Of a DNA stretch of 64,000 bases, positions 42 to 58,583 are shown one piece after another. Below the pieces are notes generated by a model. It saw nothing but the letters and a program-made list of their open reading frames with translations. It was not told the origin of the DNA and searched no databases. Source of the stretch: Sugiyamaella lignohabitans (taxonomy: Eukaryota > Ascomycota > Dipodascomycetes > Dipodascales > Trichomonascaceae); the NCBI RefSeq assembly GCF_001640025.1, contig NC_031671.1, forward strand, positions 2,232,001 to 2,296,000. Direction: 5' to 3'. How positions within the stretch are numbered: the first letter of the stretch is position 1; each line of letters starts with the position of its first letter. Both the position numbers and the translations under genes were made by a program.

Positions 42-101
42 GCCTCCGGCGGCTGGGGCTCCGCCCCAGACCCCACTGCTCCTCTCGCTTCGCTCGAGTC
101 G
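42..101 (+). repeat. Double-hairpin GC element, solo, forward
   Basis: Forward unit: core starting CCTCCGGCGGCTGGGGC, 3-base loop TCC, then the CTCTCGCTTCGCTCGAG-type second hairpin. It is a solo copy, although two reverse copies lie within 400 bp. Confidence 0.9.
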
Positions 102-366
102 GGTGTCGGGATCCCAGTGTCGCGTCTAGTGAGTGGAGGTTCGCGAAGCGACAACTGCTGGAGAGTGAAAGTGAATATTCTCTATTTCTATTGGCTCCGG
201 CACTGCTGCTCCTGTCGCGTCGAGGGCGCCGGAAGCTCGCGAACAACCACCAGTGGTCGTTCTCCAGCTGTATCCACTGTTATTGGTCATTTGAAGAATG
301 GCAAGCTCTTGAAGCACGAGCCCAACAGCCAGGGACTGGGAAAAGACAGACTGGGGTGAACAGAGA

Positions 367-420
367 GCTCGCGAAGCGAGCACCATGGGGTCTGGGGCAG
401 AGCCCCAGCCGCCGGAAGCA
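367..420 (-). repeat. Double-hairpin GC element, solo, reverse
   Basis: Reverse unit. On the minus strand the first hairpin has loop TCT, and the second is GCTCGC-TTC-GCGAGC. The distal end reads GGAAGCA instead of GGAGGCA, a single-base divergence. Confidence 0.9.
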
Positions 421-440
421 GACCCGCAAAAGAACAGAAA

Positions 441-494
441 ACTCGCGGAGCGAGTACCACGGGGTCTGGGGCGGAGCCCCAGCCGCCGGAGGCA
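441..494 (-). repeat. Double-hairpin GC element, solo, reverse
   Basis: Reverse unit in tandem with the preceding one. The second hairpin on the minus strand is ACTCGC-TCC-GCGAGT. Compared with the GCTCGC/GCGAGC form, the outer pair has changed from G-C to A-T on both sides, so pairing is kept. Confidence 0.9.
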
Positions 495-529
495 GAGAGG
501 GGACAGTAGTAGACAGGTTCGTTAATTTA

Positions 530-2503
<1,974 letters not shown>

Positions 2504-4435
2504 ATGACAAGCCCGTTTGATGTTCTGACAGAAGATCAGGGTAGCAAACAGTCTGACATTCAGAGTGGCCAATTACAGAACTCGGATTTAGGGCCTTTCG
2601 TACAGGATGTTGCTCCTGGATCCGGTGTCATCGCTGTAGAGCATCAACATCAACATACAACGGACAGACAGGAGGTCATTAACGGACTACCAGGGACTCA
2701 TGGTAATGAAATAGATAACGGAACAGGATTCTTGCCGAAAAATGATGGAGATGAAATTGCGTTTAAACAGGAAAACGACATTGACAGAATAGACAGCGCT
2801 GTGAGAGAAAGTGGACGCTCGATATCACAGTCGATCGAGCAAGAACACAACAGCCAGACAGAAAGCGAACTGATATTAACAGCGACCAAACAAGAACATT
2901 TCCAACCAGCTAATGCTGTATCTAAGACAAACATCAAGCAAGAACCAACTGCAGAACCAGCTGTGAAACCAGAAGTGGTACCAGTTGTAGAGCCAGTAAC
3001 AGAGACAGTAAAGACAGTTAGCGAACAAAAAGCTTTCAACTTCGTTGCAGAGTCTGCTCTAAAGATGAATATTAAATCAGATTCTGAGCCAGTTTTCGAG
3101 CCCGTTGCAGAACCCGCTTCAAGATCCTCATCTACGGCATCAACACCTCCCAAGACTAGGAAAAAGCCCAAGCCAAAGGTACCAAAACGACTAAAACAGC
3201 CAGAAGAGCTTTTGGACATGACTCAGTATACTCCTGGGGCATACAAAACATGGATCAACCAGGAACTCCGTCAGGATGTTGCTATGTTACATCATGTATT
3301 CCAGGAATCGAGACGATTAATAGTGGTAACCGGAGCAGGCATATCGGTAGCAGCAGGAATCCCCGATTTTCGATCACAGCAAGGCTTGTTTGTATCACTC
3401 AAGCAAGAACTGAGTTTAAAAAGTAGCGGAAAAGCTATGTTTGATGCATCTGTTTATCAAGATAGCACTTCATTAGCCAATTTCCATACAACAGTTCGAG
3501 ATTTACACAAGCTATGTACATCTTGTGCCCCGACGCCATTTCATAAATATCTCGACGATGTAGCTGGGCAGGGGCGATTGGGTAGGTTATACACGCAAAA
3601 CATCGACTGTTTAGACTCGTCATTGAGTAATCTCAGTTCACAAGTACCACTAAAATATCCGTGGCCTAAAACTATTCAACTACATGGGACTATAGGAACC
3701 ATGGTATGTGTTCGATGTCACTGGCTAGGACCACTAGATCCGGAAATATTCACTGATAGCGGAGCTCCTGATTGTCCAGAATGTCTTGAACTGGACTCAG
3801 TTCGAGCTGTGGCTGGAAAAAGATCTCAAGGTATTGGCAAGCTGAGGCCCCGAATCGTGCTATACAACGAAGCCAACCCTGATGCTGAAGCTATCGGGTC
3901 TGTTACAGAAGAAGACCTAAGCTGTAAACCAGACGGGCTTGTGGTAGTAGGAACCTCGTTGAAGATACCTGGAGTGAGGAGGATTGTAAAAGAAATGGCC
4001 CAAGCCGTTCACCATGCCAAAGGAGCAGTAGTGTGGCTAAATGTCGACGAGCATCCACAACTTAACAATCAGTTCGAAGGCTGTTTTGATTTATTTGTAA
4101 AAGGAGACTGTCAGCTGGTGCCACAATTAATACAGGACTACGAGCAAGAAAGGGTCGAACTGGAACTGGAAAAAGAGCGCGAGAAACAGCAACGCAAAGC
4201 TAAAAGCGAAGAGCGAGCCATCCAACGCGAACTCAAAGCTCAACAAAAGCTCAAACAACAATCAACCCTCAATTTCCAGGCAGTCAAACGGCCCAACGAC
4301 AACGACGCTGCCACCAACAAAAAGCAGAAAACCATCTCCACCCTTCCCACAACGAACATACCCTCGGGTCCGCTACCACCACCGACTTCTACATCACCAC
4401 CCCTGGCATTCGCCAACGCCCCTACTACTATTTAA
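2504..4435 (+). CDS. HST3: Sir2-family NAD-dependent deacetylase, Hst3/Hst4 type
   Basis: A 643-residue sirtuin. Hst3 and Hst4 remove acetyl from histone H3 lysine 56 after S phase, protecting genome stability. An acidic, Pro/Glu/Val-rich N-terminal 250 residues precedes the catalytic domain at about residues 260-545. That domain has the NAD motif VVTGAGIS (about 272), GIPDFRSQQGLF, TQNID, the catalytic His in QLHGTIG, and zinc cysteines CVRC (about 402) and CPEC (about 425). SGKAMFDAS after the NAD motif and KLRPRIVLYNEANPDAE are typical of the Hst3/Hst4 branch rather than Sir2/Hst2. The C-terminus is a charged coiled coil and a Pro/Thr-rich tail. The first ATG in frame, at 2504, is taken as start. 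I cannot say whether HST3 or HST4 is the better name. Confidence 0.92.
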   Translation: MTSPFDVLTEDQGSKQSDIQSGQLQNSDLGPFVQDVAPGSGVIAVEHQHQHTTDRQEVINGLPGTHGNEIDNGTGFLPKNDGDEIAFKQENDIDRIDSAVRESGRSISQSIEQEHNSQTESELILTATKQEHFQPANAVSKTNIKQEPTAEPAVKPEVVPVVEPVTETVKTVSEQKAFNFVAESALKMNIKSDSEPVFEPVAEPASRSSSTASTPPKTRKKPKPKVPKRLKQPEELLDMTQYTPGAYKTWINQELRQDVAMLHHVFQESRRLIVVTGAGISVAAGIPDFRSQQGLFVSLKQELSLKSSGKAMFDASVYQDSTSLANFHTTVRDLHKLCTSCAPTPFHKYLDDVAGQGRLGRLYTQNIDCLDSSLSNLSSQVPLKYPWPKTIQLHGTIGTMVCVRCHWLGPLDPEIFTDSGAPDCPECLELDSVRAVAGKRSQGIGKLRPRIVLYNEANPDAEAIGSVTEEDLSCKPDGLVVVGTSLKIPGVRRIVKEMAQAVHHAKGAVVWLNVDEHPQLNNQFEGCFDLFVKGDCQLVPQLIQDYEQERVELELEKEREKQQRKAKSEERAIQRELKAQQKLKQQSTLNFQAVKRPNDNDAATNKKQKTISTLPTTNIPSGPLPPPTSTSPPLAFANAPTTI

Positions 4436-4477
4436 TGCTCCTAATGTCACGACGTAACGACTTTTCCCTTGGTGTAC

Positions 4478-4614
4478 TGCCGCCGGCGGCTGGGGCTCTG
4501 CCCCAGACCCCGCTGCTCCTCTCGCTGCGCTCGAGTCGTTCCGTCGACAATCCCAGCAACTCCTGCGAAGCAGGAGCAACGGGGTCTGGGGCAGCGCCCC
4601 AGCCGCCGGAGGCA
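4478..4614. repeat. Composite 137-bp inverted-pair GC element
   Basis: A forward unit (4478-4540) and a reverse unit (4561-4614) are joined by a linker containing GTCGAC. The left unit has the CTCTCGCTGCGCTCGAG-type second hairpin and the right unit has CTCCTGC-TTC-GCAGGAG. It lies between the convergent sirtuin and GPN3 genes, 43 bp from both stop codons. Confidence 0.92.
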
Positions 4615-4657
4615 CATCCCCCCAGTAAGTGTTTGTACATAAATAAATTACAGAAGC

Positions 4658-5482
4658 CTAGAAATCGGCGGCATCCAGCTCTTCGAGCTCGTCTTTGGGC
4701 TCTTTGGGCTCTTGAGCCTCGGCCCATTGGGTCACGTCGTCGATGTAGCTGAGGATCGTGGCTACACTGTCAGGGTTCTTGGCCTCGAGCGGCAGGAATT
4801 GGACCATGCCGAAGTCGTCAGTCAGCATGGCGATGCTCTTATTTAGTTCGTGGAATTTGGGGTTGGTTCGTTCGTTGGCTTCGTGTGCCATGAGTAATGG
4901 GTCGGGATTCAAGTACCTTTTTAGTTCTCGTTTAGGTACTTCGTCGGTGATGGTATCCATTTTACTAAGAATATTGATATGCGGAGTTTCAAGAAGGATC
5001 ATGGCGGACATGGCTGAAAGCACGCCTGAAAAGAATTTCGGTCGGTCAATGACAAAAGGCGCTTCTAAAAGATATGTGGCACATAGTGAGAAGTTGAGTG
5101 TGTTTCTCAAATGCTTGACTAATGCTGGTAACACTGGAATATGAGTATAGAGCTCGATCTGACCGGGGCAGTCGAATATCAGATACTCTTCTTCATAATC
5201 CCCGATCTCCTCGTCTAACCAGTCCAAATTGTTCAAAAGAAACTCGAAACAGTATACAAGACCACCATTAGGTCCATATTCCATCTCTTCCATGACATCT
5301 TTCAGGGAAATCAGGTCTCGAATATCGACGGAAAACTCGTACTCCGACGGCTCAGCGGCGGGATCCAGGTTCACGATATGAGCTCGTCGACCAATCGACT
5401 GGATATGAGAAATAAGCGCCGAGCAGAACGTCGACTTGCCCACACCAGCCGGACCAAGAACTAAAACACCAACTCTGGACAT
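4658..5482 (-). CDS. GPN3: GPN-loop GTPase 3
   Basis: This 274-residue GTPase acts with Gpn1/Npa3 and Gpn2 in cytoplasmic assembly and nuclear import of RNA polymerase II. The P-loop GPAGVGKST spans residues 10-18. The family-defining Gly-Pro-Asn insertion is at about residues 70-72. The G3 motif is [12 protein letters not shown], and the G4-like motif is SKMD. The C-terminal [16 protein letters not shown] followed by an acidic tail is typical of Gpn3. The ATG at 5480-5482 gives [10 protein letters not shown], the conserved family N-terminus; a longer reading would need a TTG start. It is convergent with the sirtuin gene and lies head-to-tail with MSC2. Confidence 0.97.
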
Positions 5483-5939
5483 TTCAAAACACAAAATACT
5501 TCTTCAATAACTGTCTGTCCTGTATTATAAATAAACTGATGAACATAAATAATTTAGAGCATCATGCAGTCTCTCTGAAATTTCTCAGCCGCATGATCTC
5601 AGGGTCCACCCCCTGGTCGGGGGTTCTTGGGACACGTTTTTCCCAAAAGACTGCCTCCGGCGGCTGGGGCTCCGCCCCAGACCCTGGTTGTTGTGCTCGC
5701 TTTGCGAGCGACGGGGAACCCCTGAGAAATCTCTTTTCCCCCAAATCAGCCTCCCGAGGCCGGAAAACCCCGTCACCAGGGGACTCCCCAGCTACGACTC
5801 GAGCGAAGCGAGAGGAGCAGCGGGGTCTGGGGCGGAGCCCCAGCCGCCGGAGGCACAGCCCCAGACCGTGGGTAGAATAAATATTAAGTGTATGCAAGGG
5901 CCTATATGCAGGGGCTTATCTACAGGAGAGTTAAGGGAC
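5483..5939. other. Intergenic region with a long inverted-pair GC element
   Basis: This lies between the GPN3 start and the MSC2 stop. It is mostly occupied by an inverted repeat pair, and no further gene is recognised. Confidence 0.6.
5652..5855. repeat. Long-linker inverted-pair GC element (about 204 bp)
   Basis: The forward unit (5652-5712) has second hairpin GCTCGC-TTT-GCGAGC. The reverse unit (5795-5855) has the CTCGAGCGAAGCGAGAG-type hairpin. The linker of about 80 bp is itself GC-rich. It is similar in plan and length to the pair at 19885-20090. Confidence 0.9.
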
Positions 5940-9081: not shown

Positions 9082-10396
9082 ATGAAACTAATCGCTACTA
9101 CTAACAGATCCAGTAAACATTCAACAAAACATTCAACAAGTGAGGAATTAAATAACGCTTCAACAGATGGCCAAACTGAAGATGAATATTCGCCATGGAA
9201 TGTGTTTAAATCAGCCAATTGGACCCCAGACGGGTCGAGTGTGCTGACAGTCAACGAAGACAACAGTGTCCGGTTGTTTGTCATACCTCCGGATGTTCTC
9301 AACACCGACGATGGCATGGTCAAACACCTCAAACCGTACGCGACAAAAAGAATGCCAACCTCAATTCTGTCATTATCAATCTATCCTGGTTCTAGTATTC
9401 AGCCAGGTGGATCAGTATATTCAGCCATTGCTGTCCGAGACGTGCCAGTGCGATTGTACGACATGCTTGACCCCGAATCCAAGGGTCGAGCCTCGTTTGG
9501 ACTGCTGGCCAATGAAGAGTACTTACCAGCCTATGCCACCCAATTCAGTAGCGACGGCTATTCCCTAGCCATGGGAACGAAGAAAGCGTATGCCGTATTT
9601 GATATCAATCGACCCGGAACCACACCAGTCTATCATCTACCGATCAAAGGTGGCATCGTCTCAACCTTATCACACAATCCCCGTGACAACCAAATCACAG
9701 CACTCGGCGAGTTCGACGGTCGAATACGACTCATCGATCAGCGAGTCGAGAAGACCGAACAACTGCCCGAAACCCACCCGACCACACAAGCCAACATGCA
9801 ATTACTCTGGACCGATTCCAGCGAATACATTCTCCAAGTGTGTCGCGACAGCTGCGAAATCAACGTCCTCGACGTCCGCTCCAACCTCCAAACCGTAGGA
9901 CAACTAGCAGAATTCCCCGGCCAAACCAATCAACGACTCCACATCTCACTCTCACCAAACGGCCGAGTTCACGCTGGCGGCCATGACGGCTCCATATCCA
10001 CCTGGACCTCCATCCATACCCCGCACCGAATCACAACCGTCCCAGCCCACAACTGTAAGTATCACACCCACCCGACGCCCGACTCGAGCGAAGCGAGAGG
10101 AGCAACCAGGGTCTGGGGCGGAGCCCCAGCCGCCGGAGGCATGTTCCCCGGGCCGTGTATGCCTCCGGCGGCTGGGGCTCCGCCCCAGACCCTGGTTGCT
10201 CCTCTCGCTTCGCTCGAGTCGGGCGTCGGTAGGAAGGGAGATGACTAACGGGGGTGTAGCGTGTGTGACGAGTGTGGATGTGAACCCGATTAAGGGCGCG
10301 GAGGTGCTTGTTTCGTGCTCGGGGACGAGGGGGAGGGGGAATGCCGAGTGTAGTTTGAAGGTGTGGGATCTGTTGGCACCGGGTGAGGAGAAATAA
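9082..10396 (+). CDS. SWT21: WD40 protein of the WRAP53/Swt21 family (one intron)
   Basis: The spliced product is 369 residues from exons 9082-10054 and 10260-10396. The donor is GTAAGT at 10055. The branch site GACTAAC lies near 10243 and the acceptor is TAG at 10257-10259. Joining restores frame with the tail SCVTSVDVNPIKG and ends in VLVSCSGTRG and LKVWDLLAPGEEK. Repeated WD40-like blades begin with WNVFKSANWTPDGSSVLTVNEDNSVRLF, the signature of the WRAP53/TCAB1 family. The budding-yeast member Swt21 is linked to spliceosome function. The 205-bp intron is almost entirely a perfect inverted pair of GC-rich elements. Without splicing the frame would run into the repeat. The gene ends 41 bp from the convergent CSN5 stop. 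Confidence 0.85.
10072..10229. repeat. Perfect 70-nt inverted repeat of GC elements inside an intron
   Basis: Arms 10072-10141 (reverse unit) and 10160-10229 (forward unit) are exact reverse complements over 70 nt, separated by 18 nt. The order is reverse-then-forward, opposite to most pairs here. The whole structure lies within the SWT21-like intron. Confidence 0.95.
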
Positions 10397-10437
10397 ATAA
10401 ATAAATATATTGTGTATAGAGGAGGACGAAGAGGGTG

Positions 10438-11662: not shown

Positions 11663-11722
11663 AGCCTCCGGCGGCTGGGGCTCCGCCCCAGACCCCGCTG
11701 CTCCTCTCGCTTCGCTCGAGTC
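11663..11722 (+). repeat. Double-hairpin GC element, solo, forward
   Basis: Forward unit with loop TCC and the CTCTCGCTTCGCTCGAG-type second hairpin. The outer end reads AGCCTCC instead of TGCCTCC. Confidence 0.9.
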
Positions 11723-12482: not shown

Positions 12483-12543
12483 CGACTCGAGCAAAGCGAG
12501 AGGAGCAGCGGGGTCTGGGGCGGAGCCCCAGCCGCCGGAGGCA
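12483..12543 (-). repeat. Double-hairpin GC element, solo, reverse
   Basis: Reverse unit of the same type as the copy at 11663. One base differs in the second hairpin (GAGCAAAGC for GAGCGAAGC). Confidence 0.9.
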
Positions 12544-15237: not shown

Positions 15238-15247
15238 TTCCCCCCCG

Positions 15248-15305
15248 TCGCTCCGCGGAGCGGAGCACAACGGGGTCTGGGGCGGAGCCCCAGCCGCCGG
15301 AGGCA
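15248..15305 (-). repeat. Double-hairpin GC element, solo, reverse
   Basis: Reverse unit between the convergent TBC and PBN1 genes, 10 bp after the TBC stop codon. The second hairpin on the minus strand is GCTCCGC-TCC-GCGGAGC. Confidence 0.9.
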
Positions 15306-15389: not shown

Positions 15390-17086
15390 CTAATCGGCTT
15401 TGGTCTTTCGGCCGATATTCGACACGATCTTGTACAGGATGTATATCGTAGCGGTGAGCAGAACCGTGACAGACAGCCACTGAATGCGGTCGTACTGGTT
15501 GAAAGGAGCCACGGGGATGTTGAAACTCGTGCTGAGAACATCCCCATCTTCAGGAGATGGTGTCAGATGGTAGTAAAGAGTGTTATCAGGGAAAAGAGAT
15601 TCATAACCTAGACCCTTGATCTCGCCGATATGACGCTGTTCCTGTTGGAAATCAGGACATACCCAGAAAACAATAGGCCAGGGCAGGTTCTGAGTGACAG
15701 ATGTACTGTTCATCTGAGGAAACTCATAGCGAGAATGAAGCGGCAGTTCGAAAGTGAAATCACTGCTTTGAATATCGCTATTGTGGTATATTTCCACCAG
15801 CAGCTCGCTTCCCCAACCGTCAACAGACCATACAGGAGCCTCGAGATCGGTCTCTCCCCAAACAGCTATCAGTTTGCCCTTGGCTGTAGACATGGCAGTC
15901 GACCGATCCAGGTCGGCCAATTGGTACTTATCCACAAACAGGGCCTTGGGAATGGTATATTTGGAATATAACCTGCAGTGCTGGTCGGGCGACTCGATAT
16001 TAGAGAGATGCAGATTGTGTTTAGGATGAAGGCCTACTGGTTTCGAAAAGTCTGCTCTATACGAACTGGACACTGGCAATTGACGGTGCTGTTTCGGATA
16101 TCTCACCATGATTTTATCATACACCGGAGTAGCAGGTTTATCAAGATCTCGTACTAACCCCTCCAGTACCCATTCCTCCTCATCAGTAGCCGAGGAGGAG
16201 TACAGCAGTCCAATCTCAATCCGTTCCTCACCACCAGCATTCTCCTTAGCGATATTCAGCGGTTTCACAGGCCGTGCCGAATATGATTCGACGACCAAAT
16301 CTGTATGCAATTGATGAGCAAGAGGGCTCTGTGGTAACAGTCCATACGTAATAGACAGCGAATCTGCCTCGTCGACATGAAACAGCGAAAACAGACTCTC
16401 TCTCGCCCTATCAAACCCGTCCACAGGACTGAACTCCTGGATATACAATGACCTCCAGTTCTCGGTCTCTATCGTATGCTCAACCGACGTACCCTCAGTC
16501 AGTCCCAATTCCGCCAGTATCAACTGGACTTTGTTCCTACACCTGTTAGAACCGGCTGCCAGGCTGCCTCCGGCGGCTGGGGCTGCGCCCCAGACCCCGT
16601 GGCTCCTCTCGCTGCGCTCGAGTCGTTTCGTCGACGGTCCCAGCAACTCCTGCGAAGCAGGAGCAACGGGGTCTGGGGCGGAGCCCCAGCCGCCGGAGGC
16701 ACAGACCCCGGAAAAACGGCAAATACTCACCAGTCAGTGTCCAGATCCGTCTCGATATGCAGACCAGGCTCGCGGGGGAGTTTGAACGGGACGTCTCTGT
16801 TATAGGCTTGGGAGGTGGTCCAGCTGATCTGGATCTTGGTCTCTTTCAGGAGGTCTCGTAGCTGGGTGATTGTTAGTAACAGAGATCAAAAAAGATGAGG
16901 AATTGAGGTACGTACCTCTGATGGTTGTTTGGACTCGGGTAGCGAGATGCGGAAGTGTCGAGGCGATTTTGTGTCAGAGACGGCCATTGACCGGCCGTCT
17001 TCGGCCACTTGGAATGAATTGACCGTCTCGGGGTCGTTGACATCGACCAGGAATGTCACCCTTTTACGAATGGTACTCGTACTCAT
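15390..17086 (-). CDS. PBN1: GPI mannosyltransferase I subunit Pbn1/PIG-X (two introns)
   Basis: The spliced product is 482 residues from exons 17086-16916, 16861-16731 and 16536-15390. Pbn1 partners Gpi14 in adding the first mannose of the GPI anchor in the ER and is also needed for protease B processing. Intron 1 (16862-16915, 54 bp) has donor GTACGT, branch TTACTAAC and acceptor CAG. Intron 2 (16537-16730, 194 bp) has donor GTGAGT and branch TTCTAAC, and contains a composite GC-rich element. The joins give LPESKQPSE-LRDLLKETK and DLDTDW-NKVQLILAELG, without a frame break. The PIG-X signature YTIPKALFVDKYQL is present. One C-terminal membrane helix, IQWLSVTVLLTATIYILYKI, is followed by a short basic tail. 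The ATG at 17084-17086 is the start. Confidence 0.9.
16565..16701. repeat. Composite 137-bp inverted-pair GC element inside PBN1 intron 2
   Basis: The forward unit (16565-16625, loop TGC) and reverse unit (16648-16701, loop TCC) share the GTCGAC linker and the A/B hairpin pair with the copies at 4478, 57573 and 58446. It fills 70% of PBN1 intron 2. Confidence 0.93.
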
Positions 17087-19789: not shown

Positions 19790-20125
19790 CTACCGTTGCT
19801 CCCTGTTTTGGTTTATTTATTTATTAACAACGTGTACACCCACTTTAATTTTATTAACTTCCTTTGACTTTTTCCTGGCCACACTGCCTCCGGCGGCTGG
19901 GGCTCCGCCCCAGACCCTGGTTGTGCTCGCTTCGCGAGCGGTAGGGGGTCTTGGAACCGTCAGGAATTTGCTTATTTCTCTGGAAACGGGCTGAGGGTCC
20001 GATCCCGACCTGCTAGGCCCGTAGACGCCCGACTCGAGCGAAGCGAGAGGAGCCACGGGGTCTGGGGCAGAGCCCCAGCCGCCGGAGGCAGCATCCCAGT
20101 AAAATGACGTTAAATGGCAGTATAT
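19790..20125. other. Convergent intergenic region, CDK inhibitor / RGD2
   Basis: This is filled mainly by one long-linker inverted pair of GC elements. A TTTATTTATTTATTAAC tract at 19810-19826, just after the stop codon, is a likely 3'-end signal. Confidence 0.6.
19885..20090. repeat. Long-linker inverted-pair GC element (about 206 bp)
   Basis: The forward unit (19885-19941) has hairpin GCTCGC-TTC-GCGAGC. The reverse unit (20030-20090) has the CTCGAGCGAAGCGAGAG-type hairpin and first-hairpin loop TCT on its own strand. The linker is about 88 bp. It has the same hairpin combination and length class as the pair at 5652-5855. Confidence 0.9.
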
Positions 20126-24365: not shown

Positions 24366-25297
24366 ACGGAACTGGAGCATTTATCAGGGAGGAGGGTGTG
24401 CCTCCGGCGGCTGGGGCGCTGCCCCAGACCCCGTAGCTCCTGCTTCGCAGGAGAATCCCGCGAACGTCGACGCAACGACTCGAGCGAAGCGAGAGGAGCC
24501 GCGGGGTCTGGGGCGCAGCCCCAGCCGCCGGAGGCACACCGACCCCCCGCCATGGTCCGTCCTGGTTTAGAAGAGCTCCCACAACCGGACCGGAGTGTAA
24601 GTGTGCGTTATCTCCGGGGCTCTGCCTGATGTAGAGGGGTATGTATGCATGGTCATGCAGGTGAGAACGGTTTTGGTGCCGGAGTTTTTCCGAGATGCAA
24701 GTCCGTGGAGAACTATGGAGAGATAGTGGTCAGCAGGTGGCGATTGGTGGGTTGGCTGTGGACAGGTTTTGTAAGAGATGCGTCGGGGAAGTAAGTCAAT
24801 GTTAGCTTTTTGTGAAGTTTAGAAGGTTGAGAGGTGAGAGTGGGCAGTGGGAGAAAAGCCATGGGCAGAGTCGTTTGCATGGTGATGCAGGTGGTTGAAC
24901 TCACAGATTTTACAGAAGTCCGAACGCTAGAAGTTGAATCACAATGCAACATAGAAAAAGTCATGGACTGAACAAGAGCCAGTCAGGTTTGTGAATAAAG
25001 TGTCGAATTAGTTAGTTCGGTCGCTAGCGGATACTATCTTGTATATGCAGTCTGCCGGTTAAAAGTTCAATAGGGTACGGGCACATCTGTAATGACATGA
25101 GATGATTACCAATCTGAAGGACGATCGCTTTTCGATATAGTGTGGTTTGTCAGGTCAGTAGTTCGAAGCAAAGTTGTGAGCGGTCGATGGGTGTTTTGTC
25201 AAGCTACTGTTCTGATAAAAGTGAATCTTGATTCCAACAAGTGGTCACTCACGACATATTTTTTATAATTTTTTTTATTTGATTCTACTGAGGAACA
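24366..25297. other. Intergenic region between the Rdx and Zn2Cys6 genes
   Basis: This holds one composite GC element at 24399-24536, then about 760 bp without a recognisable gene. A T-rich tract lies at about 25258-25281, just before the zinc-cluster start codon. Confidence 0.55.
24399..24536. repeat. Composite 138-bp inverted-pair GC element
   Basis: The B-type hairpin CTCCTGC-TTC-GCAGGAG is in the left unit and the A-type hairpin in the right unit, so this copy is inverted relative to those at 4478, 16565, 57573 and 58446. The flanks GGTG and CACC extend the terminal palindrome. It begins 34 bp after the Rdx stop codon. Confidence 0.92.
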
Positions 25298-28225: not shown

Positions 28226-28362
28226 TGCCTCCGGCGGCTGGGGCTCCGCCCCAGACCCCGTAGCTCCTGCTTCGCAGGAGATTGCTGGGACCGTGGACGA
28301 CCGACTCGAGCGAAGCGAGAGGAGCAGCGGGGTCTGGGGCGGAGCCCCAGCCGCCGGAGGCA
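28226..28362. repeat. Composite 137-bp inverted-pair GC element
   Basis: B-type unit left (28226-28281), A-type unit right (28302-28362). It lies between the convergent zinc-cluster gene and RIB1, 33-43 bp from each stop codon. Confidence 0.93.
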
Positions 28363-30627: not shown

Positions 30628-32398
30628 TATATAAATGTAGGCGCGTCAGCGGTTCAGGGTTCAGGGGGGGGATCACAAGTTTAGTAATATGACGGAATCT
30701 CTATCCACTCTTTGCAGGCTGCAAAATATAATATGCAGGTAACCTTTCTGTTTAGTAATTGAGGCGTAATTTAATGTCAACGTCGCTTCGCCGGTGGGGA
30801 CGTTAATCGTAATAGAGTAGGGAAATAATCGGCGGTACAATGCAGACCAAAGGTTAATTTGTTATTTCTGGATACAATGTACAGTTGATTGTACGACGAA
30901 TATGGGATACAATGATGATTTTGATGGCGTTCCACTGACTGTGGTTGGTAATAAAATTTTGAACGGTTGTACAGGTAGCACAAGCACGAAATATGTTGTA
31001 CACAGTTAGTAGAGAAGCGGTATAGAAGTGGTACACAACTGAGGAAATGTGAGTATGAGGTTGTTACAAATGTGTAGGAACGATACGATATGGATATTCA
31101 GATGTTGTACAGGATAGGTACTGATATTCAGATATTGCACAACGAAAGTATAGACAGAAGCGGTACTGATATTCGGATTTTCGATGTCAATGGTCAATGT
31201 TCGATACTCAAAGTCCAAATCAATGCCCAAATCCAATACCCAAATCTAATCAGATGCTGAAATATCTACCTATACCGCAAGGATCAACAGCAATTATATT
31301 AATTAGTTTCTGAGTCGCCTGTTTTACTGGCTTATTGCTTGTCTTCTGTCCAATAGATGACCTCTGTAAACTCAAGAGATCAAAAAGTGTCTGAAATAAT
31401 AAATCTAGGTTACCTTGACCAGCCGCGAGCGAGTCCCATTATATATATCGGAGCGATCCACCGAAAAGCCAATTTCATTGATTTATGGTTGGGCCAGTCC
31501 TTAAAATTGACTGAAACTCAACTAATGGAAAACTGTCGAGGCAAAAGAAACCTGGTTGGCAAAAAAATAAACTTTTTAAGTACGGCCATAATTGCATAGG
31601 CAGTGGGCCTGCGGATATGCGGTGGTTACGATCTGACAATACTTATCAGATCGATTATCTTGATCAAAAAATTGATGGTGCTTAAACTGACACTTAATTA
31701 GACTCTGTGCACTCTATTCACACAACCAACTTCTGCTACTCGTAATCAAACGCTAACTTACTACTAATACTGCCACCGTACTTTAAATTGCAAATAATAC
31801 TACAAATGGCCAATTCTTGGCTACTCGGGAAGATTATCCTGATAAAGACATGCGTGTTCTTTTTTCTTTCTACGGGCCTGACGATCGCCGTATGCTGCTA
31901 ACTCACTTGACTCGTGCCCCTGAATATCGTGCAAAGCCAAGCATACACTCTACCTCGAGCACCAGCCGCTCTCCTCCCGATTTATAATAGATTTTCCTTG
32001 CCAAAACGACCAGTTTACACCCCTACTACCCAACAAACAAACTTTCGTGTTCAAAAAACAGCCGATACTAATAAAGTTAAGCCCAAATGACCAGGCTTGG
32101 CAGAGACCCTGCATAGAACACACCCATTCACCCTGCCCTAGTGCATGGCATCGAGCATCGCTGATCTCGATCTCCCATTTTAATTCAACCCCCACGGCAA
32201 TAAACATAATCTTCAGCTCCCAATTAACTACAATTCAAAGTCCAGGCTTACCGCAGCACCCAATAATCATCTAGCTCAAACTCTATCAAACTCTATCCGA
32301 TCTCCAGTCAACCACTGCTCACTTCTCGGTACCCCCATCCACGCAGCCCCCAAATGTCACCGTTACATCCTCCCCACTGGTCCACACACCCCCAATCC

Positions 32399-32490
32399 GC
32401 TCGCAAAGCGAGCACCACGGGGTCTGGGGCGGAGCCCCAGCCGCCGGAGGCAGGTGGCCGGGCCCGGAGTGCCTCCGGCGGCTGGGGGTC
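32399..32490. repeat. GC element pair, reverse unit plus truncated forward unit
   Basis: The reverse unit at 32399-32452 has hairpin GCTCGC-TTT-GCGAGC. A forward fragment at 32470-32490 keeps only TGCCTCCGGCGGCTGGGGG, then breaks off. Confidence 0.88.
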
Positions 32491-33879: not shown

Positions 33880-34072
33880 CTGCCTCCGGCGGCTGGGGCT
33901 CCGCCCCAGACCCCGCTGCTCCTCTCGCTGCGCTCGAGTCGGGCGTGGGGGTGAGGCCGTTTGGAATATTGGAATATTGAACCACCGAGTCAGCTGGGGA
34001 TCCCCACGCCCGACTCGAGCGCAGCGAGAGGAGCAGCGGGGTCTGGGGCGGAGCCCCAGCCGCCGGAGGCAG
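33880..34072. repeat. 71-nt perfect inverted repeat of GC elements
   Basis: Arms 33880-33950 and 34002-34072 are exact reverse complements, with a 51-bp AT-richer spacer. Both arms carry the CTCTCGCTGCGCTCGAG-type hairpin. It is located between the convergent COA6 and DPH7 genes. Confidence 0.95.
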
Positions 34073-40736: not shown

Positions 40737-40870
40737 TGCCTCCGGCGGCTGGGGCTCCGCCCCAGACCCCGTTATGCCAGCTTCGCTGGCCTCAATCCTA
40801 TAACTTTACTGGCGTTGCCTCCGGCGGCTGGGGCGCTGCCCCAGACCCCGTTGTGCCAGCTTCGCTGGCT
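40737..40870 (+). repeat. Tandem direct pair of double-hairpin GC elements
   Basis: Two forward units (40737-40795 and 40816-40870) share a second hairpin not seen elsewhere in the window, GCCAGC-TTC-GCTGGC. They differ in the first loop (TCC versus GCT). They lie 84 bp after the MOCS1 stop codon. Confidence 0.92.
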
Positions 40871-41114
40871 TCAATGGCGATGGCCAGAGTTATCTTCTGA
40901 ATCCAGCCTACTCCTGGGTAACGCAGGTTCCAGTGTTTGGCACCTGAAATACCTCCTCATTCCGTCATACACATCCGAAACTCGCTCTCATGTCGCTAAC
41001 TGATGCATTTTATGCTTATTTCACTATCACCTGCGATCAGATTGACTTGACAACGGTCATCTCGCAGATCCACGCATAAATGCGGAAAATACTTTTTCAG
41101 GCACAATAGAAAAA

Positions 41115-41390: not shown

Positions 41391-41451
41391 CGACTCGAGC
41401 GCAGCGAGAGGAGCAACGGGGTCTGGGGCGGAGCCCCAGCCGCCGGAGGCA
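41391..41451 (-). repeat. Double-hairpin GC element, solo, reverse
   Basis: Reverse unit with the CTCGAGCGCAGCGAGAG-type hairpin. It lies between tRNA-Arg and the dioxygenase-like gene, about 190 bp before its ATG. Confidence 0.9.
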
Positions 41452-46380: not shown

Positions 46381-46441
46381 CTACTCGAGCGCAGCGAGAG
46401 TAGCAATGGGGTCTGGGGCAGCGCCCCAGCCGCCGGAGGCA
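46381..46441 (-). repeat. Double-hairpin GC element, solo, reverse
   Basis: Reverse unit with loop GCT on its own strand and a CTACTCGAGCGCAGCGAGAG end. It lies between the tandem transporter and RAV2 genes. Confidence 0.9.
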
Positions 46442-46548: not shown

Positions 46549-46557
46549 TGCATTTAA

Positions 46558-48252: not shown

Positions 48253-48530
48253 ATTAGTTTTTCAGCGATGGAGATAGAAAGATGGATAGAATTAGATCAT
48301 GCATCAATTAAAGATATAAACAAATCAAGCGTGTAACGCGATTGGCAGCCGCGTGAACAGATGCTACAGATAAGATAAGCTTATTTCATGCGATCTTAAT
48401 CTTAGAGATGAGCTGACCGGTTATAAATATGCTCATTAGCTTTATTAAACAAAGAAAAGGTAACAGTCTTAGATATATATGTACAGAATTAGGATGCTCG
48501 ATAATAGGACAATAGCCGAAAACCAATTAG

Positions 48531-52548: not shown

Positions 52549-52857
52549 CTGACATCCTTTCCGACTCTTGTATCACGAATTTAACGACTTTTTTTATTAT
52601 TATCTATATTAGTGTTATAAACGGCGGCTGGGCTCTGCTCCAGATCCGTACACTGCTTGTACCCGCAACTTGTACACACAACTCTTCACACTGGACTTTG
52701 AGCCAAAGTTATAAATCTTTTCTCAGGGGGGTTTTATTCACTAATTAGTACTCAGGGGGAGTTATCGATGACAAGTTCAGCCGTACATGATATGCGCATT
52801 TATATATATGTATATGTTCATCTTGAAGCTCAGATCAGTACTATATCAAACCAGAAT
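52549..52857. other. Intergenic region with a decayed GC-element fragment
   Basis: AT-rich spacer between VPS64 and MGR3. CGGCGGCTGGGCTCTGCTCC at 52623 is a degenerate forward GC unit lacking its second hairpin. Confidence 0.55.
52623..52650 (+). repeat. Decayed GC-element fragment
   Basis: It keeps CGGCGGCTGGG and CTCCAGATCC from the core. The stem is shortened by substitutions to CTGG/CCAG, and the second hairpin is gone. Confidence 0.6.
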
Positions 52858-54602
52858 ATGTTTCGAATCAGGCCATTTTCACTGGCAAGCCGAATTGGCT
52901 ATCGAACAGGGGTGAAAAATTTTCCAAGGAAATCGATTCCTAGTCTTATCGCAAAACGTTCTATAACGAATGCATTCCAACATGGAGTTCCACCTCCACA
53001 TCCAATGCCGCCAGTGAAGAAAGTTCGTGCCTACCGGTGGCCAATTATCCTTGCTCTGGCAATGCTGGTTTCAGGTGTAGCATTTAGATACTATACAGCT
53101 CACAATTATCCACCAGAAGTGGCCTCGAAACTTCGCAAGGGTCTCAGAGCTGAGTTAGATGGCGGAGGCAAAGGCAAACCAGACTACAAATTAGCATTAC
53201 AATATTACTTAGAAGCACTGGAGGAAGCAGACAATTCGAATCTGCACTATTTGAGTGATGAATATACAGGACTTCAAATCAAAATTGCCGAAATGTATGA
53301 AAAATTGGGTATGGAAGAAGAAGCAAGACTCATCTACCGTGAGCTAGGAACATCTTATATTCAAGCATTGACAGACGGAACCGCAGTATCTGCAGAAGTT
53401 CGTCCTCATATGATCCAGAGAGACCTCCGAGTTGCATTGAAGACTGCCATATCTGAAGCTACCACTAATCCTGAGGTAGCCAAGATGGGCCTATTAGTTC
53501 ATTTCACCATTGCACAGATGGAAGTCGCCAATAGAGATCCAGCAGTTGCGGAACTTATCAACAGCGAGAAGACCCGGGCCAATTTCAATATATCTATTCC
53601 TGTCGAGGGAGCTCCATCAAAATTCGATACAAAAGCTTGGGAGCCATTTCGGGACGAGCTGTTTAGTGCTCGAGACAGTACGTATTCACAACTAGCGGCA
53701 TGTTCAGTGCCCAGACATTCTTGTTTCTGTCACCACTTTCGAGTCGTGTTTTGGATCAAGCCACTGTGTAGTGGTATCCCCAGAACTTGATCAAGATCAA
53801 ATATCTGGGATTCATCCAACCGAACGGATTTGAAAGACGAATCAAATTGTCGGGTAAACTTCAACAGCCTCGGAAACAGCTAAGCAATATCAGAACTAAC
53901 AAATCTACTAGTGTTTGTAGCATTGTGTCTTGCTACTGGAGATATTGGACATGCGCTACAGGCTAAGCTTGCCACAACCGAATGGATGGCTGCTGCGGGT
54001 TGCGATATTGGCGAGATTCTCATGTCATGTAAGTATTCCTTGAACACCCACTATCAATAACCAAGAGTCAAGACAATAAACTAACAGCCCCAGTCTATAA
54101 CGTGGGATCCATTTTCTATCTGCAGTCAGAACAATTAGAATTGAAAGAGACTCAGTTCACAGAAGCAAAAAAGGACGATAAAGAAGTAGCTCCCGTGCGG
54201 AAGATGGCTAAAGACTCGATAGACTACTCCACAACATGTTTCAGCATAATTTTGAACGCAGTAGAACAACTTCCCAGCAAGGCCCGACGGGAAGCCAATG
54301 TCGCCGAAGTGCATGCTCTATCCACATATGGGCTCGGGGTCATAGCCCTTCACCGCGGCGAATACGAGAAGTCAAGAGACCTTTTGCGAGAATCACGGCT
54401 TCGAGCCAAAGGCTGTGAGTTCGATGATCTCGTCACAAGCTCGGAACTCGAGCTTCAAAAGCTTGACAACATTCTTGCCGAAATCGCCAAAGGTGAGAAG
54501 AACCCCAAATACGAGCCTCCATCCATGGACGTCCTGTTCCTCAAACCCGACAACAAAGACGATCCCGTCAATATCAAACCTCCACTCGACGAATCTGCCT
54601 GA
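52858..54602 (+). CDS. MGR3: Mitochondrial i-AAA protease adaptor Mgr3-like, TPR protein (two introns)
   Basis: The spliced product is 481 residues from exons 52858-53677, 53912-54028 and 54094-54602. Donors are GTACGT and GTAAGT, branches GAACTAAC and AACTAAC, acceptors TAG and CAG. The joins give FSARD-MFVALCLATGDIGHA and GEILMS-FYNVGSIFYLQ. Mgr3 works with Mgr1 as a substrate adaptor of the Yme1 protease at the inner membrane. An Arg-rich presequence (MFRIRPFSLASRIGYRTG) is followed by one membrane helix (WPIILALAMLVSGVAFRYY). Next come TPR-like helices: KLRKGLRAELDGGGKGKPDYKLALQYYLEALEEA, IKIAEMYEKLGMEEEARLIY and GLGVIALHRGEYEKSRDLLRES. An ATG 30 codons upstream is in frame but gives a less typical presequence. 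Convergent with PAR32. Confidence 0.85.
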
Positions 54603-54639
54603 ATATTTTCTATAAATCACACTCCCAGACTCCCCACTC

Positions 54640-54791
54640 TGCCTCCGGCGGCTGGGGCTCCGCCCCAGACCCCGTGGTTCCTGCTTCGCAGGAAACTGCT
54701 GGGACCGTCGACGGAACCGGTGACCCCAGCAACGACTTGAGCGAAGCGAAAGGAGCAGCGGGGTCTGGCAGAGCCCCAACTGCTGGAGCCA
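54640..54791. repeat. Composite inverted-pair GC element with a decaying right unit
   Basis: The left unit (54640-54696) carries hairpin TTCCTGC-TTC-GCAGGAA, a pair-preserving variant of CTCCTGC/GCAGGAG. The right unit (54732-54791) has lost two bases in the first stem (TCTGGCAGAGCCCCAA) and ends GGAGCCA. It lies between the convergent MGR3 and PAR32 genes. Confidence 0.9.
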
Positions 54792-54887
54792 GCAGCACCT
54801 TAAAGGGAAAGGTCAGCAATAAATAAGTGTTATTAAATATAAACAGTAAGAGAATAAATAAGCGATGCAAAAGGGGAGATATATGGC

Positions 54888-55433
54888 TCAGTTCGAGAGC
54901 GTCGTCTTTAGCTTGGACCATAAACTGGACGAGAATGTGGGTTGTAAGTCATTGTTGAATTTGGTAGCAGGTGGCATGGATGATACCGGTGACAGCAGCA
55001 CCGGACTGTGCGGGGGTGATGGTGGCACACGAGGGCTTGTTTGTCTGAACGGGCTGAATCGTCTTCGTCGGGTATTCTCGGCATTTTCAGATTCAGTAGA
55101 TGAACCAGAGAACATGGGTTGCAGTTGGTTCTTTCTGTTGCGGTCCATGATATTACCGGCACCGCCACGACCGACTGAGTAGGACTCCGGCTCGACATCC
55201 AAGGCCTTGTGTGCTTCTTCCAGGTATTCCGTTGGTGACAGTGTTCTCATTCTTTCAATAGGGATATTGTTACCCCAGCCTCCTCGACCTGCTCGAAACG
55301 TCTGTGTTGGCGACGAGAAGGTTTGAATAGGAGCAGGTGTGCTTGGTACCGACTCGAGTTCATGCTCCGATGAACCGGGTTTCTTTGACTTGGCAACATA
55401 GTTGCCGTAACCACCGCGTCCTGTTAATGGCAT
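54888..55433 (-). CDS. PAR32: GRGGAGN-repeat protein, Par32/DUF3602 family
   Basis: A 181-residue, largely disordered protein with three copies of the family motif: GRGGYGN near the N-terminus, GRGGWGNN near residue 49 and GRGGAGNIMDR near residue 88. In S. cerevisiae, Par32/Amu1 is hyperphosphorylated on TORC1 inhibition and blocks the Mep1/Mep3 ammonium transporters. Proline-directed Ser/Thr sites are frequent (VPSTPAP, TLSPTEY, PSPPHSPVLLSP), consistent with phosphoregulation. The motif GRGGxGN is seen directly; the nitrogen-signalling role is carried over from the yeast family. The ATG at 55431-55433 is the start and the motif follows at once (MPLTGRGGYGN). It is convergent with MGR3. Confidence 0.85.
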   Translation of the reverse strand: MPLTGRGGYGNYVAKSKKPGSSEHELESVPSTPAPIQTFSSPTQTFRAGRGGWGNNIPIERMRTLSPTEYLEEAHKALDVEPESYSVGRGGAGNIMDRNRKNQLQPMFSGSSTESENAENTRRRRFSPFRQTSPRVPPSPPHSPVLLSPVSSMPPATKFNNDLQPTFSSSLWSKLKTTLSN

Positions 55434-57841
55434 CTCGATTAGTCTTTTAAGTATCTCAAGTTCTTTTTTAACTAGTCAAGTGAAGTGAATCAAATGAATC
55501 TTTTGAGTGTTCTTCTTCGTTATTCACAACCACTGGTCAGAAGATGACGATGCTTTAAAATAGTATAAGTAGTAGTCGTTATGTTAAGTGGACTGATGTC
55601 AATAGGACCGACAACAAATCTCACAGTTAACAATAAAATTAATGAATAGGGAAGAAGTAAACAGAAACAGAAGCAGAATCGCTACTTTTTATGAATCTTC
55701 CAGATATTTCTTGCTTGTTGGCTTATTGTACAACAATAAACTTTTGTTCGTGATACAAATTCTCTTTTATTAAATGCTGTCTGGCAAATGTTGAGTGCAT
55801 GTCATGTGCTGACTCCTCATTTCACCAACTGTATAAATTTTTTAGCCGCGACTTCCTTACAGTGTAAGACTTGGCAGGGTATGGGGATTATACCTAATAG
55901 GGTAATAAATCAAGTAAAACGGCTCGCATATGGCGGGGAGTGGAGGTCGGATGGACCACTTAAAGCAGCATGATCTGTACCGTGAGGAGTATGCTCGGCA
56001 GGCTGAACTGTGCAGAATAGGGGGATGCTGCCAGGTGGTACCGTGTTATTTCTTGTCTTGGGCGTTGTATTCGGCGTCTCACCCCCAGAGAATGTGGGGT
56101 ATTGTTGCGGGGAAAAAATATCACAATAAAAAATAATAATACAATAGCCGACATCACATTCAACTCATAACGACACAAAAATAAACCCATATCATACAGC
56201 AGACAAGCGGTAATTCCACTAGTTCACATGCACCCCTGAATATTCTCATTTACTCTCACCTCTCATCTCGACGCATTGGTATCCGGCTATTCTGGGCCGA
56301 TGAGGTTCCGTCATTCGTTTCTGTCATTCGACATGCTCGTGGTAACACTAATTTTTCACTGCAAATTTTTCGATGTTACCGACTAAGCCGGCCTGCCGAC
56401 GCCTTCCACCTATGTATGTAACGCCTGTATGTAAAAAAATATGCTGAATTTTCACTGTGGGTGATTATTGTATGAACTGCCGCAATAACACGTGAATTCA
56501 TGTAGCATGACCTCTCTAAATGCATTCTCACTGTCTCAACTTTTAGAGCGTTAAGGTATTATTCGCAGGCCGCAGTGTAACATATTAGGCAATCATCCCG
56601 TTTCAGTCATTTCAGAAATGACTGTTACATTAGCACTTGTACTTGAAAATGTTACCAGCATTTTTTGCCAGTAGAATTTTGTCAGGGTAAGGTTTTCAGT
56701 TGGGAGGTAAAAAAATGAGCCAAAAAAATAGCGAGTTCAAAGTAGAAACAAAGCGCGTTAGAGAAGCCGCGCTAGCCACAACCGACTGATAGTAGCGAAC
56801 GAATGTCATACAGGGAAAGTGAGATTTGTAAGGTTGCAAAATGCTGGTGGTGCTAGCAGCCAGCAGCAGACGCAGAGATAGGGAGGAAAAAAAAGTCGCG
56901 CGTCGAACATCCTGAAGCCATTCATTGGGAGGTTCCTGAAACTTTCGAAAGCATTCTCGCAACGCAGTCATCAGGACTCACCAATAGAACAAGACCAACG
57001 TTTGAAACACACCTACCACTACCAACCAACTACCATCATCACTCATTCACTGTAGATTACTGATTACCAGTACTACTACTATCTACTGTCGAGTAGAGTC
57101 GGTGAACTGGGTATCATCTTAAACCGTAAACTCCCGAGCAGGTAGGACTAGTGAACCCCTCCAATTCAACGTTCACTACCCAGCTTCAATCCCAATAATC
57201 CCTCCATCAGTCAGACACATCAATCAACACCACAAAAGTCCACAAAACCGATTTTCACTAAACCTGGGGACCGCCGGTCCTTATATATCTAGCACTCTGT
57301 CAGAATTTTACAGTTTGGGCAATGGCGCCCGTGATTATCCGTCAGGCTGCATATTTTTCACTGATAACACAGATAAGATTGATCTCGCGCTCTCATTGGT
57401 CTGATATGATCCAATCGATTGCAGCATTGCATCCCCTAACCCGGCCTTACACAGCACCCTCAGCCAGGGTCCATTCTCCCCTGGTGACCACTACGGGCCA
57501 GAATTGGACTTGGGGCTTCTCTGCTGGAACGGGCTCTCTTCTGGGCCTGGGAACTGGGGGTGGTGGGGGTTCTGCCTCCGGCGGCTGGGGCTCCGCCCCA
57601 GACCCCGCTGCTCCTCTCGCTTCGCTCGAGTCGTTCCGTCGACGGTCCCAGCCATCTCCTGCGAAGCAGGAGCCATGGGGTCTGGGGCGGAGCCCCAGCC
57701 GCCGGAGGCAGAACCCCTTTCCCCTGGGATGGTGGGATGGGGTGGACCGTTGCGGGGTGCGAGGTGCGGTGGTAGCGCCGTGCGTGTGAGATGTAGAGAG
57801 ATTAGGTTCACGGGTGATGAGCAGGGTTTGATGGTGCCAGG
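55434..57841. other. 2.4-kb divergent intergenic region, PAR32 / MED11
   Basis: No gene is recognised. One composite GC element (57573-57710) lies about 130 bp before MED11. The rest is AT-rich with no tRNA. A frame beginning at 57322 runs into the GC element and is not called. Confidence 0.5.
57573..57710. repeat. Composite 138-bp inverted-pair GC element
   Basis: A-type hairpin left, B-type right, joined by TTCCGTCGACGGTCCCAG. The flanks GGGGTTC and GAACCCC extend the terminal palindrome by 7 bp. It lies upstream of MED11. Confidence 0.93.
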
Positions 57842-58380
57842 ATGCCGCCGACTGGAGTGTTCGAGGAGATAGATTTGTCTGAGGCGCCTATGGCGCCTGA
57901 GGATGTGCAGGAGCGACTAGATGTGCTTCATGCTGTGGACAATGTGAGTTTGGATGGGGTGATTTGCGTGATTTGAGTGGGTAATGGCAGTAGCTAACTG
58001 GTGATTTGTAGAAAATTATTACTCTGATAGAGACGGCGTCTCGGGCTATCAATGCTCTGGAAGTCGGGAAGTCTGCTGCCAATGATCTGAAGGTCGTAGA
58101 AGCGAAAAAAGAGTTCCAACAATCGGCCAAGTCGTATTTCGACCTCGTCGAAGAGATCACCGTCAAACTGCGACGAGAGGTCCGGCTCCTTCATTACATG
58201 TCCAAAGAGAAGGTTCTGCCGCTGTCGCTTCCTACCAAAGCTGTCTGGCTTGGAAAAGAAAACGAAAAAGAGATCTGGTCGAACATTGACCAGCTCCTAA
58301 ACAAAGAAAACGCCAAAACCGAGCCTGACAGCAAATCGGAGCCCTATGCCGAGACCACTGATCCAATGAAAACCGAGTAG
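57842..58380 (+). CDS. MED11: Mediator head-module subunit Med11 (one intron)
   Basis: The spliced product is 156 residues from exons 57842-57943 and 58012-58380. The intron has donor GTGAGT, branch TAGCTAAC and acceptor GTAG. Joining gives VQERLDVLHAVDN-KIITLIETASRAINAL, matching the Med11 N-terminal helix (QERLKSLNDIETQLCSML in S. cerevisiae). EVKKEFQ-like and SAKSYFDLVEEITVKLRREVRLL then match the second and third helices of the Med11-Med22 bundle. Med11 is part of the Mediator head that contacts TFIIH and RNA polymerase II. An acidic C-terminal tail (TEPDSKSEPYAETTDPMKTE) is an extra feature. The gene sits between two nearly identical composite GC elements and is convergent with FOL3. Confidence 0.88.
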
Positions 58381-58445
58381 CTTTTGGAGCATTCTTATTT
58401 ATTTATTACGACTGAGACTATATTCTATATTCTGGAAGCGGGTGA

Positions 58446-58583
58446 CGCCTCCGGCGGCTGGGGCTCCGCCCCAGACCCCGCTGCTCCTCTCGCTTCGCTC
58501 GAGTCGTTCCGTCGACGGTCCCAGAAATCTCCTGCGAAGCAGGAGCCACGGGGTCTGGGGCGGAGCCCCAGCCGCCGGAGGCA
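58446..58583. repeat. Composite 138-bp inverted-pair GC element
   Basis: A-type hairpin left, B-type right, with the same TTCCGTCGACGGTCCCAG linker as the copy at 57573. It separates the convergent MED11 and FOL3 genes. Confidence 0.93.

Follow-up and report, generated by a model that had tools for sequence, protein, structure and literature searches.

REPINs are inverted pairs of highly conserved ends, with a spacer that is conserved in length and folding, not in sequence (PMC3116915, in part). GC-rich hairpins with tiny loops are also described from intergenic DNA of organelles, as double-hairpin elements in Allomyces, GC clusters in yeast mitochondrial DNA and RHEs in sponges (PMC4478555 and PMC2800124, in part), and introners are described as high-copy elements linked with introns (PMC9860276, in part). 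A 64-kb stretch of Sugiyamaella lignohabitans DNA (C3:2232001-2296000, referred to below as the window, with position 1 its first base) carries a family of GC-rich hairpin units that shares features with all of these. The genome searched is 15.93 Mb in four contigs; published figures for the species are 16.0 Mb, 5% split genes and a table value of 4, taken here as chromosomes (PMC5499181, in part). Contigs of megabase size and nuclear-type genes identify the DNA carrying the family as nuclear, and the open reading frames (ORFs) of the window encode eukaryotic and fungal domains (Zn-cluster regulator, RabGAP, RhoGAP/FCH/DEP and WD40). The family is probably one of non-autonomous, REPIN-like mobile palindromic elements resident in the yeast nucleus.

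The hairpin-1 pattern CTGGGGC-NNN-GCCCCAG was matched 33 times in the window without mismatch. Up to three mismatches gave 36 matches, where shuffled sequences averaged 1.4, and the 10-mer CCTCCGGCGG with up to one mismatch gave 35 against 1.9 expected; in three of the 33 units the 10-mer carries a single change. An initial annotation had proposed a dense nuclear family of about 35 copies, in both orientations, single and paired, lying in intergenic DNA and introns and sharing no reading frame. All of this was seen: the 33 units form nine inverted pairs and 15 singles, and no frame common to the copies was found. Genome-wide, the 17-mer core CCTCCGGCGGCTGGGGC was found exactly 5,782 times (2,889 forward, 2,893 reverse; reversed control 0), nearly two exact cores per 5 kb, ruling out that the sequence lies at this locus only. 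The annotation was largely right and understated, having missed the genome-wide spread, an inverted pair with two different ends, and a bacterial frame.

Anatomy was read from a sample of 222,011 bases, made up of the window, fourteen 10-kb stretches and merged loci of 3 kb. The sample was partly taken from copy-rich places, with eight loci centred on copies, so its rates are not genome averages (0.77 units per kb, against 0.36 exact cores per kb for the genome). Thirteen matches with five or six core mismatches, apparently mostly the opposite strand of the core, were excluded. Accepting up to four core mismatches yielded 172 units, of which 145 were perfect, 19 had one mismatch, 6 two, 1 three and 1 four; the reversed sequence yielded none. 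ORFs for context were taken crudely from ATG to stop, with at least 150 residues.

Units are laid out as TG-CCTCCGGCGG-CTGGGGC-NNN-GCCCCAG-ACCC(C/T)G-NN-hairpin 2. Hairpin 1 is present in every unit counted. Among paired units, the T preceding the 10-mer is conserved at 92% and the G at 99%; positions -14 to -5 are occupied by a G-rich run. In RNA folds of three consensus-like units, hairpin 1 was extended by GGCGG-CCCC pairing, with bulges. Hairpin 2 had been annotated with a three-base loop, usually TTC. It was clean (at least 5 bp, three-base loop) in 74 of the 172 units, 63 of them with TTC, which confirms that description only in part; the others were 79 units of A type, which fold otherwise, and 19 without a clean hairpin-2 match. 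With these 19 left out, the loop between GC and GC reads T-N-C in 144/153 units, that is G-N-A on the opposite strand. The oligonucleotide d(GCGNAGC) is an exceptionally stable DNA minihairpin and would fit folding at the DNA level. A-type units keep T-N-C between GC and GC, their hairpin 2 is imperfect, and the RNA fold is a 4-bp stem with a 7-base loop; the DNA fold of both strands of one single unit held no A-type hairpin 2 on the + strand. For about half of the units the three-base loop is therefore no more than a reading of the sequence. Hairpin-2 stems occur in many versions with both arms changed, among them GCTCGC/GCGAGC, GCTCCGC/GCGGAGC, GCCAGC/GCTGGC and GCACGC/GCGTGC.

Inward-facing pairs numbered 51 among the 172 units, and 36 of them span 127-142 bp with a peak at 134, so that, as in REPINs, inverted doublets with a fixed spacer range are present. 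The commonest element measures about 137 bp and consists of two unlike units, an A-type end with another kind in 35 of the 36 aligned pairs. Two whole pairs folded as one long hairpin, not as four small ones (DNA-fold z-scores -13.6 and -13.1). Centres of full pairs vary, with up to about half of the sequences differing per column. Complementarity between the outer flanks of a pair exceeds that of shuffled flanks (longest match 4.63 vs 4.01, reached in 0/300 shuffles). No target-site duplication was found in the 51 pairs: the longest direct match between flanks averaged 3.14, and 3.16 after shuffling. A REPIN-like process is favoured by the defined inverted ends, the missing target duplication and a spacer of variable sequence in a pair of kept length and folding.

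REPINs and REPs share with the yeast element the inverted pairs of conserved ends, a spacer kept in length and folding, compensatory changes, extragenic placement, singles beside pairs, and clusters and tandems (PMC3116915, in part). The yeast element differs in being nuclear, in using introns as sites, in its thousands of copies and in that no Y1 transposase was found. Its 5' sequence is TGCCTCC, not a GTAG/GTGG-type tag as given for REPs (PMC2817692, in part). Its singlets are also no more diverse than its doublets (perfect cores in 59/70 singles and 86/102 paired units), unlike what is described for REPINs (PMC3116915, in part). Since no PF01797 match was found and singles are not more decayed, the element was not filed as a REPIN. 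A classical miniature inverted-repeat transposable element moved by a DDE transposase, with the 31-bp core as terminal inverted repeat, would also have defined length, high copy number and no coding capacity, as seen here. This is unlikely, however, given the missing target-site duplication, the abundance of intact singles and the failure to find a MULE transposase, MULE being the only DDE family searched.

The best evidence for insertion is a step in intron length. Genome-wide, GTAAGT lies 4-34 nucleotides (nt) ahead of an exact core in 212 matches and CTAAC...AG behind an inverted core in 564, alternative AGs being counted separately. Short GTAAGT...CTAAC...YAG intervals numbered 624 against 119 in the reversed control. 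In the sample, GTAAGT occurred in 7/172 flanks, against a mean of 0.7 for other letter orders, and CTAAC in 12 against 3.1. On C1 up to 1,048,180, where the comparison ends (some alternative-AG duplicates were left out), a branch point and an AG follow 18 of the 21 cores that have GTAAGT shortly before them. Sixteen of these introns are 181-218 nt long and the other two 156 and 401 nt. Separately, 24 candidate intron rows were collected, of which eight (seven introns) hold units. Ten of the 16 element-free rows were kept (48, 51, 52, 56, 56, 56, 76, 93, 111 and 161 nt) and six dropped as doubtful (42, 239, 358, 366, 448 and 477 nt); three rows, two among those kept, are weaker for want of a stop in the intron frame. 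A further three element-bearing introns were added. Subtracting the element from five pair-bearing introns left about 47-70 nt. Insertion is backed by intron lengths of 181-218 nt with the element against 48-56 nt in the six shortest element-free candidates kept, and the step can naturally be read as the entry of a 137-bp element, approximately, into introns of about 50 nt.

The GPI10 intron on C1 is an example. It reads GTAAGT, 21 nt, a full element, CTGAC and TCTAACAG, and its 192 nt comprise 137 nt of element and 55 nt of other sequence. The exon behind it encodes a C-terminus conserved in relatives, and the predicted spliced frame ends in TRFFNSHFHDDARRRGDVIVYRKV, like theirs (RFFNSHFHDDWRRVGDVVVY and similar). 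The deposited Gpi10p (C1:542581-544245) is translated through the element-bearing intron and lacks this C-terminus; its end is wrong owing to one copy, and other genes may be affected likewise. If other element-bearing introns were missed in the same way, the figure of 5% split genes may be an underestimate. On a very rough estimate from uncurated patterns, between a quarter and a third of canonical short introns would be occupied. Of the two introns of the window annotated as carrying copies, one is supported (10055-10259).

An introner supplies splice sites itself. Here they lie outside the element, with GTAAGT 11-36 nt before it in the 21 C1 cases and the branch point and AG behind it in 18, and the rest is a normal-looking short intron, so the introns are hosts and not products. 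Spread through RNA, by reverse transcription or reverse splicing of hairpin transcripts or lariat introns into new places, has been suggested for the Allomyces elements (PMC2800124, in part) and would suit both the frequency of introns as hosts and the absence of target-site duplications. It is nevertheless improbable: the host introns read have only the element in common and not whole introns, no A-tail was seen, and most sample loci are intergenic.

Alongside the observed dispersal, anatomy, conservation of cores over loops and centres and insertion-sized lengthening of introns, we infer mobility as a process and folding in single strands. The main insertion unit would be the inverted pair of about 137 bp, TG-CCTCCGGCGG-hairpin1-ACCCCG-hairpin2-centre-hairpin2'-CGGGGT-hairpin1'-CCGCCGGAGG-CA, and single, tandem and back-to-back units would be derived or alternative forms. 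Copies would have gone into pre-existing short introns and intergenic DNA. Their movement would depend on an enzyme that acts in trans and recognises the hairpin ends, as for REPINs, with single-stranded or extruded DNA as the probable substrate. Near-perfect cores would be expected if only copies with intact ends get copied; alternatively, a folded copy may be tolerated, a folded element in an intron leaving the effective spacing unchanged. Short introns used as insertion rulers would permit a direct test of how gene-less elements spread.

Several results weigh against a mobile REPIN-like element. Only some of the units have a clean hairpin 2, and the DNA fold of a single unit was no better than shuffles (z -1.0 and -0.7 by strand). 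The equal intactness of singles and pairs is not predicted by a simple model in which the pair moves and the single is dead. A six-frame search of the yeast genome gave no match to Y1_Tnp (PF01797), with controls positive in 5/14, and none to MULE (PF10551), the one DDE family covered; a Helitron search gave no match in the yeast genome, but none in controls either. A masked self-comparison of the 222 kb returned 30 rows, and in those examined no element flank was duplicated without the element; the rows recognised were variant units and local repeats. The matches listed for the first 20 kb of the window, from 39 of 2,914 candidates scored, were all to elements. Four element-bearing introns hold one unit with roughly 120-190 nt of other sequence, and some element-free intron candidates are long too, which makes intron length an imperfect ruler.

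The cores are nearly uniform. At 28 core positions in the 172 units, 38 changes were counted in 4,816 bases (0.8%), against 18% per base for the hairpin-1 loop relative to TCC. Pair changes in the 7-bp stem of hairpin 1 were one-sided or uncompensated in 11 cases and compensated in one; covariation is thus nearly absent from the point changes in this stem. Stems that are shorter but have a foot to match do occur (CTGGGC/GCCCAG with ACCCG, CCGGGC/GCCCGG with ACCCG). Copies anchored by hairpin 2 alone have at most two core changes in 83/89 (A) and 56/62 (B) cases, which leaves no extended tail of decayed copies. Paired units are alike in the hairpin-1 loop in 32/51 pairs (null 26, p 0.008) and in the foot in 27/51 (null 18, p 0.002), and some exchange or shared history between paired units may have occurred. 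Gene conversion was considered as a cause of the uniform cores and is disfavoured, as the three-base loops inside the stems vary.

Such conservation would also be expected of functional cis-elements held by selection, whatever their origin, acting as outward-pointing hairpin signals at gene borders in transcription end, RNA processing or insulation. We regard this as a possible though doubtful account of the family; of the rivals to mobility, selection acting on copies where they sit is the strongest, and it may operate as well. It is in keeping with the core and loop rates and the hairpin-2-anchored copies above, and with two tandem units of the window (40737-40875) that keep perfect stems while their spacers are hardly alike. 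Placement is in its favour too. Gaps with a locus were 17/23 among convergent, 17/27 among tandem and 12/24 among divergent gaps, with 1.46, 0.69 and 0.57 loci per kb, respectively. Singles, after dropping 19 at sample edges and six in ORFs, have the CCTCC end facing the nearer ORF in 35/45 cases (p 2.5e-4), 20/22 at 5' ends and 15/23 at 3' ends; ORF cut-offs of 100, 200 and 250 residues gave 29/40, 32/45 and 32/45 (p about 0.006). On the other side, the ORFs are crude and the sample non-random, 28/74 gaps have no locus, and copies in introns are excised with the intron. Eleven of 96 merged loci lie inside crude ORFs and the rest outside gaps at edges, and at least three of the internal ones are in predicted introns (10055-10259 in the window, GPI10 and C2_2000). 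The loop variants could moreover be inherited through active lineages, loops and feet of paired units being more alike than shuffled.

The nearest sequences found outside the yeast were bacterial. The exact 28-base pattern was found in four contigs among about 85,000 prokaryote genomes, from Solidesulfovibrio aerotolerans, two other Desulfovibrionaceae and an Acetobacteraceae metagenome-assembled genome (MAG). The frame CCTCCGGCGGC-N8..36-GACCCC occurred 198, 11, 94 and 330 times in these genomes, respectively (controls 0, 0, 0 and 2), and 3,750 times in the yeast (control 0). The CCTCCGGCGG-stem-ACCCC family was also found in eight IMG/VR contigs. In one Desulfovibrionaceae unit, 34/34 bases are those of the yeast majority core. 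A model built from the 33 window units scored bacterial units to E 9e-11, with 28 matches below 1e-4 in 12 loci, a measure of likeness and not an independent discovery since these loci had been picked by pattern; in five loci chosen otherwise it had no match. Searches of plasmid and phage collections gave only partial matches of 22-24 bases. Real hairpins, judged by eye, were present in 2/60 Acetobacteraceae genomes (17 with any match, the other 15 with one to three chance-like ones), in 2/118 genomes sampled around the phylum of bacterial genome G001 (three with any match) and in 1/299 around that of G003 (eight with any match).

As in the yeast, the bacterial 10-mer is preceded by G (in every unit listed), the foot is ACCCC with a hairpin between, and a second hairpin is sometimes present. 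The Acetobacteraceae MAG and the IMG/VR contigs also have some inverted pairs, about 80-126 bp long. Bacterial stems vary far more, although variant hairpin-1 stems within the shared frame occur in the yeast too. Many bacterial units have an A-rich run outside, where the yeast has a G-rich run and TG, and frame matches per genome are 11 to 330 rather than thousands. Bacterial units fell inside long ORFs of GC-rich DNA, which are probably spurious, in 14/28 and 7/9 loci. A protein search with translated elements gave 20 word-sharing candidates, none at E 0.001, and could be answered only by ORFs of about 85-271 residues. PF01797 is present in three of the four element-bearing bacterial genomes and not in G003; six bacterial loci around Y1 matches, two of them overlapping, held no unit. 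Some bacterial Y1 transposase matches contain stops. An Rfam scan of ten bacterial and IMG/VR loci returned at gathering level only a riboswitch, c-di-GMP-I (RF01051), at L009:5536-5620 in Solidesulfovibrio aerotolerans.

Chance seems excluded as the source of the likeness between yeast and bacteria; descent by transfer and convergence on shared machinery may each explain it, and both fit. A tentative and more far-reaching possibility is that one mobile hairpin family spans bacteria and a eukaryotic nucleus, a eukaryotic REPIN counterpart that would have reached an ancestor of Sugiyamaella from bacteria, been moved by an enzyme reading folded single-strand ends, and since filled a large share of introns and gene borders. 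If the kinship is by descent, a tiny non-autonomous element crossed domains.

Membership with the Allomyces mitochondrial elements, with which the initial annotation had compared the plan, is not supported; the likeness is one of plan, and the double-hairpin plan itself is clean for about half of the units only. The Allomyces elements, GC clusters and RHEs are organellar and without established sequence likeness (PMC4478555 and PMC2800124, in part), whereas the yeast element is in megabase nuclear contigs. That the family immigrated into the nucleus from mitochondrial double-hairpin or GC-cluster elements is hardly credible: the small-loop hairpin plan is similar and GC42 of yeast mitochondrial DNA likewise has loops more variable than stems (PMC4478555, in part), but no sequence link was found in the collections searched, and the closest sequences found are bacterial. 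GC42 also has putative AG duplications at its target (PMC4478555, in part), and the nuclear element has none.

No comparable nuclear family was found in the literature searched, which did not cover the species' genome paper. Text searches with 17-mers gave no match and those with shorter or other strings nothing relevant, mostly as judged by title. A REPIN-like load in a eukaryotic nucleus of about 16 Mb would be an unusually good case for the spread of very small mobile DNA.

Table 1. Hairpin units, pairs and the host intron in the window (window coordinates; strand given as + or -, a point where none applies).
Position	Strand	Feature
41..100	+	Single unit, A type
361..494	-	Two tandem units (361-420, 435-494), hairpin-2 stems GCTCGC/GCGAGC and ACTCGC/GCGAGT
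2040..2099	+	Single unit, one 10-mer change
4478..4614	.	Full inverted pair (A + B), between converging ORFs 2504-4435 (+) and 4658-5482 (-)
5652..5855	.	Inverted pair, long centre
10055..10259	+	Predicted intron of WD40-repeat gene, read through by ORF 9082-10248; GTAAGT ... CTAACGGGGGTGTAG
10082..10219	.	Two A units back to back (outward-facing), within intron 10055..10259
11663..11722	+	Single unit, A type
12484..12543	-	Single unit, A type
15246..15305	-	Single unit, hairpin-2 stem GCTCCGC/GCGGAGC
16565..16701	.	Full inverted pair (A + B); one long hairpin fold, z -13.6 (+), -10.8 (-)
19885..20090	.	Inverted pair, long centre, between converging ORFs
24399..24536	.	Full inverted pair (B + A)
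28226..28362	.	Full inverted pair (B + A), between converging ORFs
32393..32452	-	Single unit, followed by a broken 10-mer and stem copy at 32471
33881..34071	.	Inverted pair, two A units, longer centre
40737..40875	+	Two tandem units with common rare hairpin-2 stem GCCAGC/GCTGGC
41392..41451	-	Single unit, A type
46382..46441	-	Single unit, A-like
54640..54699	+	Single unit; degenerate opposite unit at 54757-54790 (E 0.009)
57573..57710	.	Full inverted pair (A + B); outer flanks GGGGTTCTG...CAGAACCCC also complementary
58446..58583	.	Full inverted pair (A + B), downstream of ORF 58605-59834 (-)

The degenerate unit opposite 54640..54699 suggests a broken pair. An Rfam scan of the window returned only a tRNA at the gathering level; weak matches to a full pair were far below gathering scores and reflect the long GC hairpin. 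Two A units set back to back around a GC-rich spacer (about 21-24 bases) were seen in four places (the window intron, L073, L075 and L078), with outer flanks unlike one another. Variant units (stems CCGGGC/GCCCGG, feet ACCCG) form a small cluster at L049:4330-5395, where both orientations occur and some of the units are in tandem. Local tandem repeats unrelated to the element lie at L058:9375-9681 and L057:5749-6083. A fused copy at approximately C1:221420-221480 reads hairpin 2 (B)-hairpin 1-hairpin 2 (A), lacks the CCTCCGGCGG ends and is palindromic around hairpin 1.

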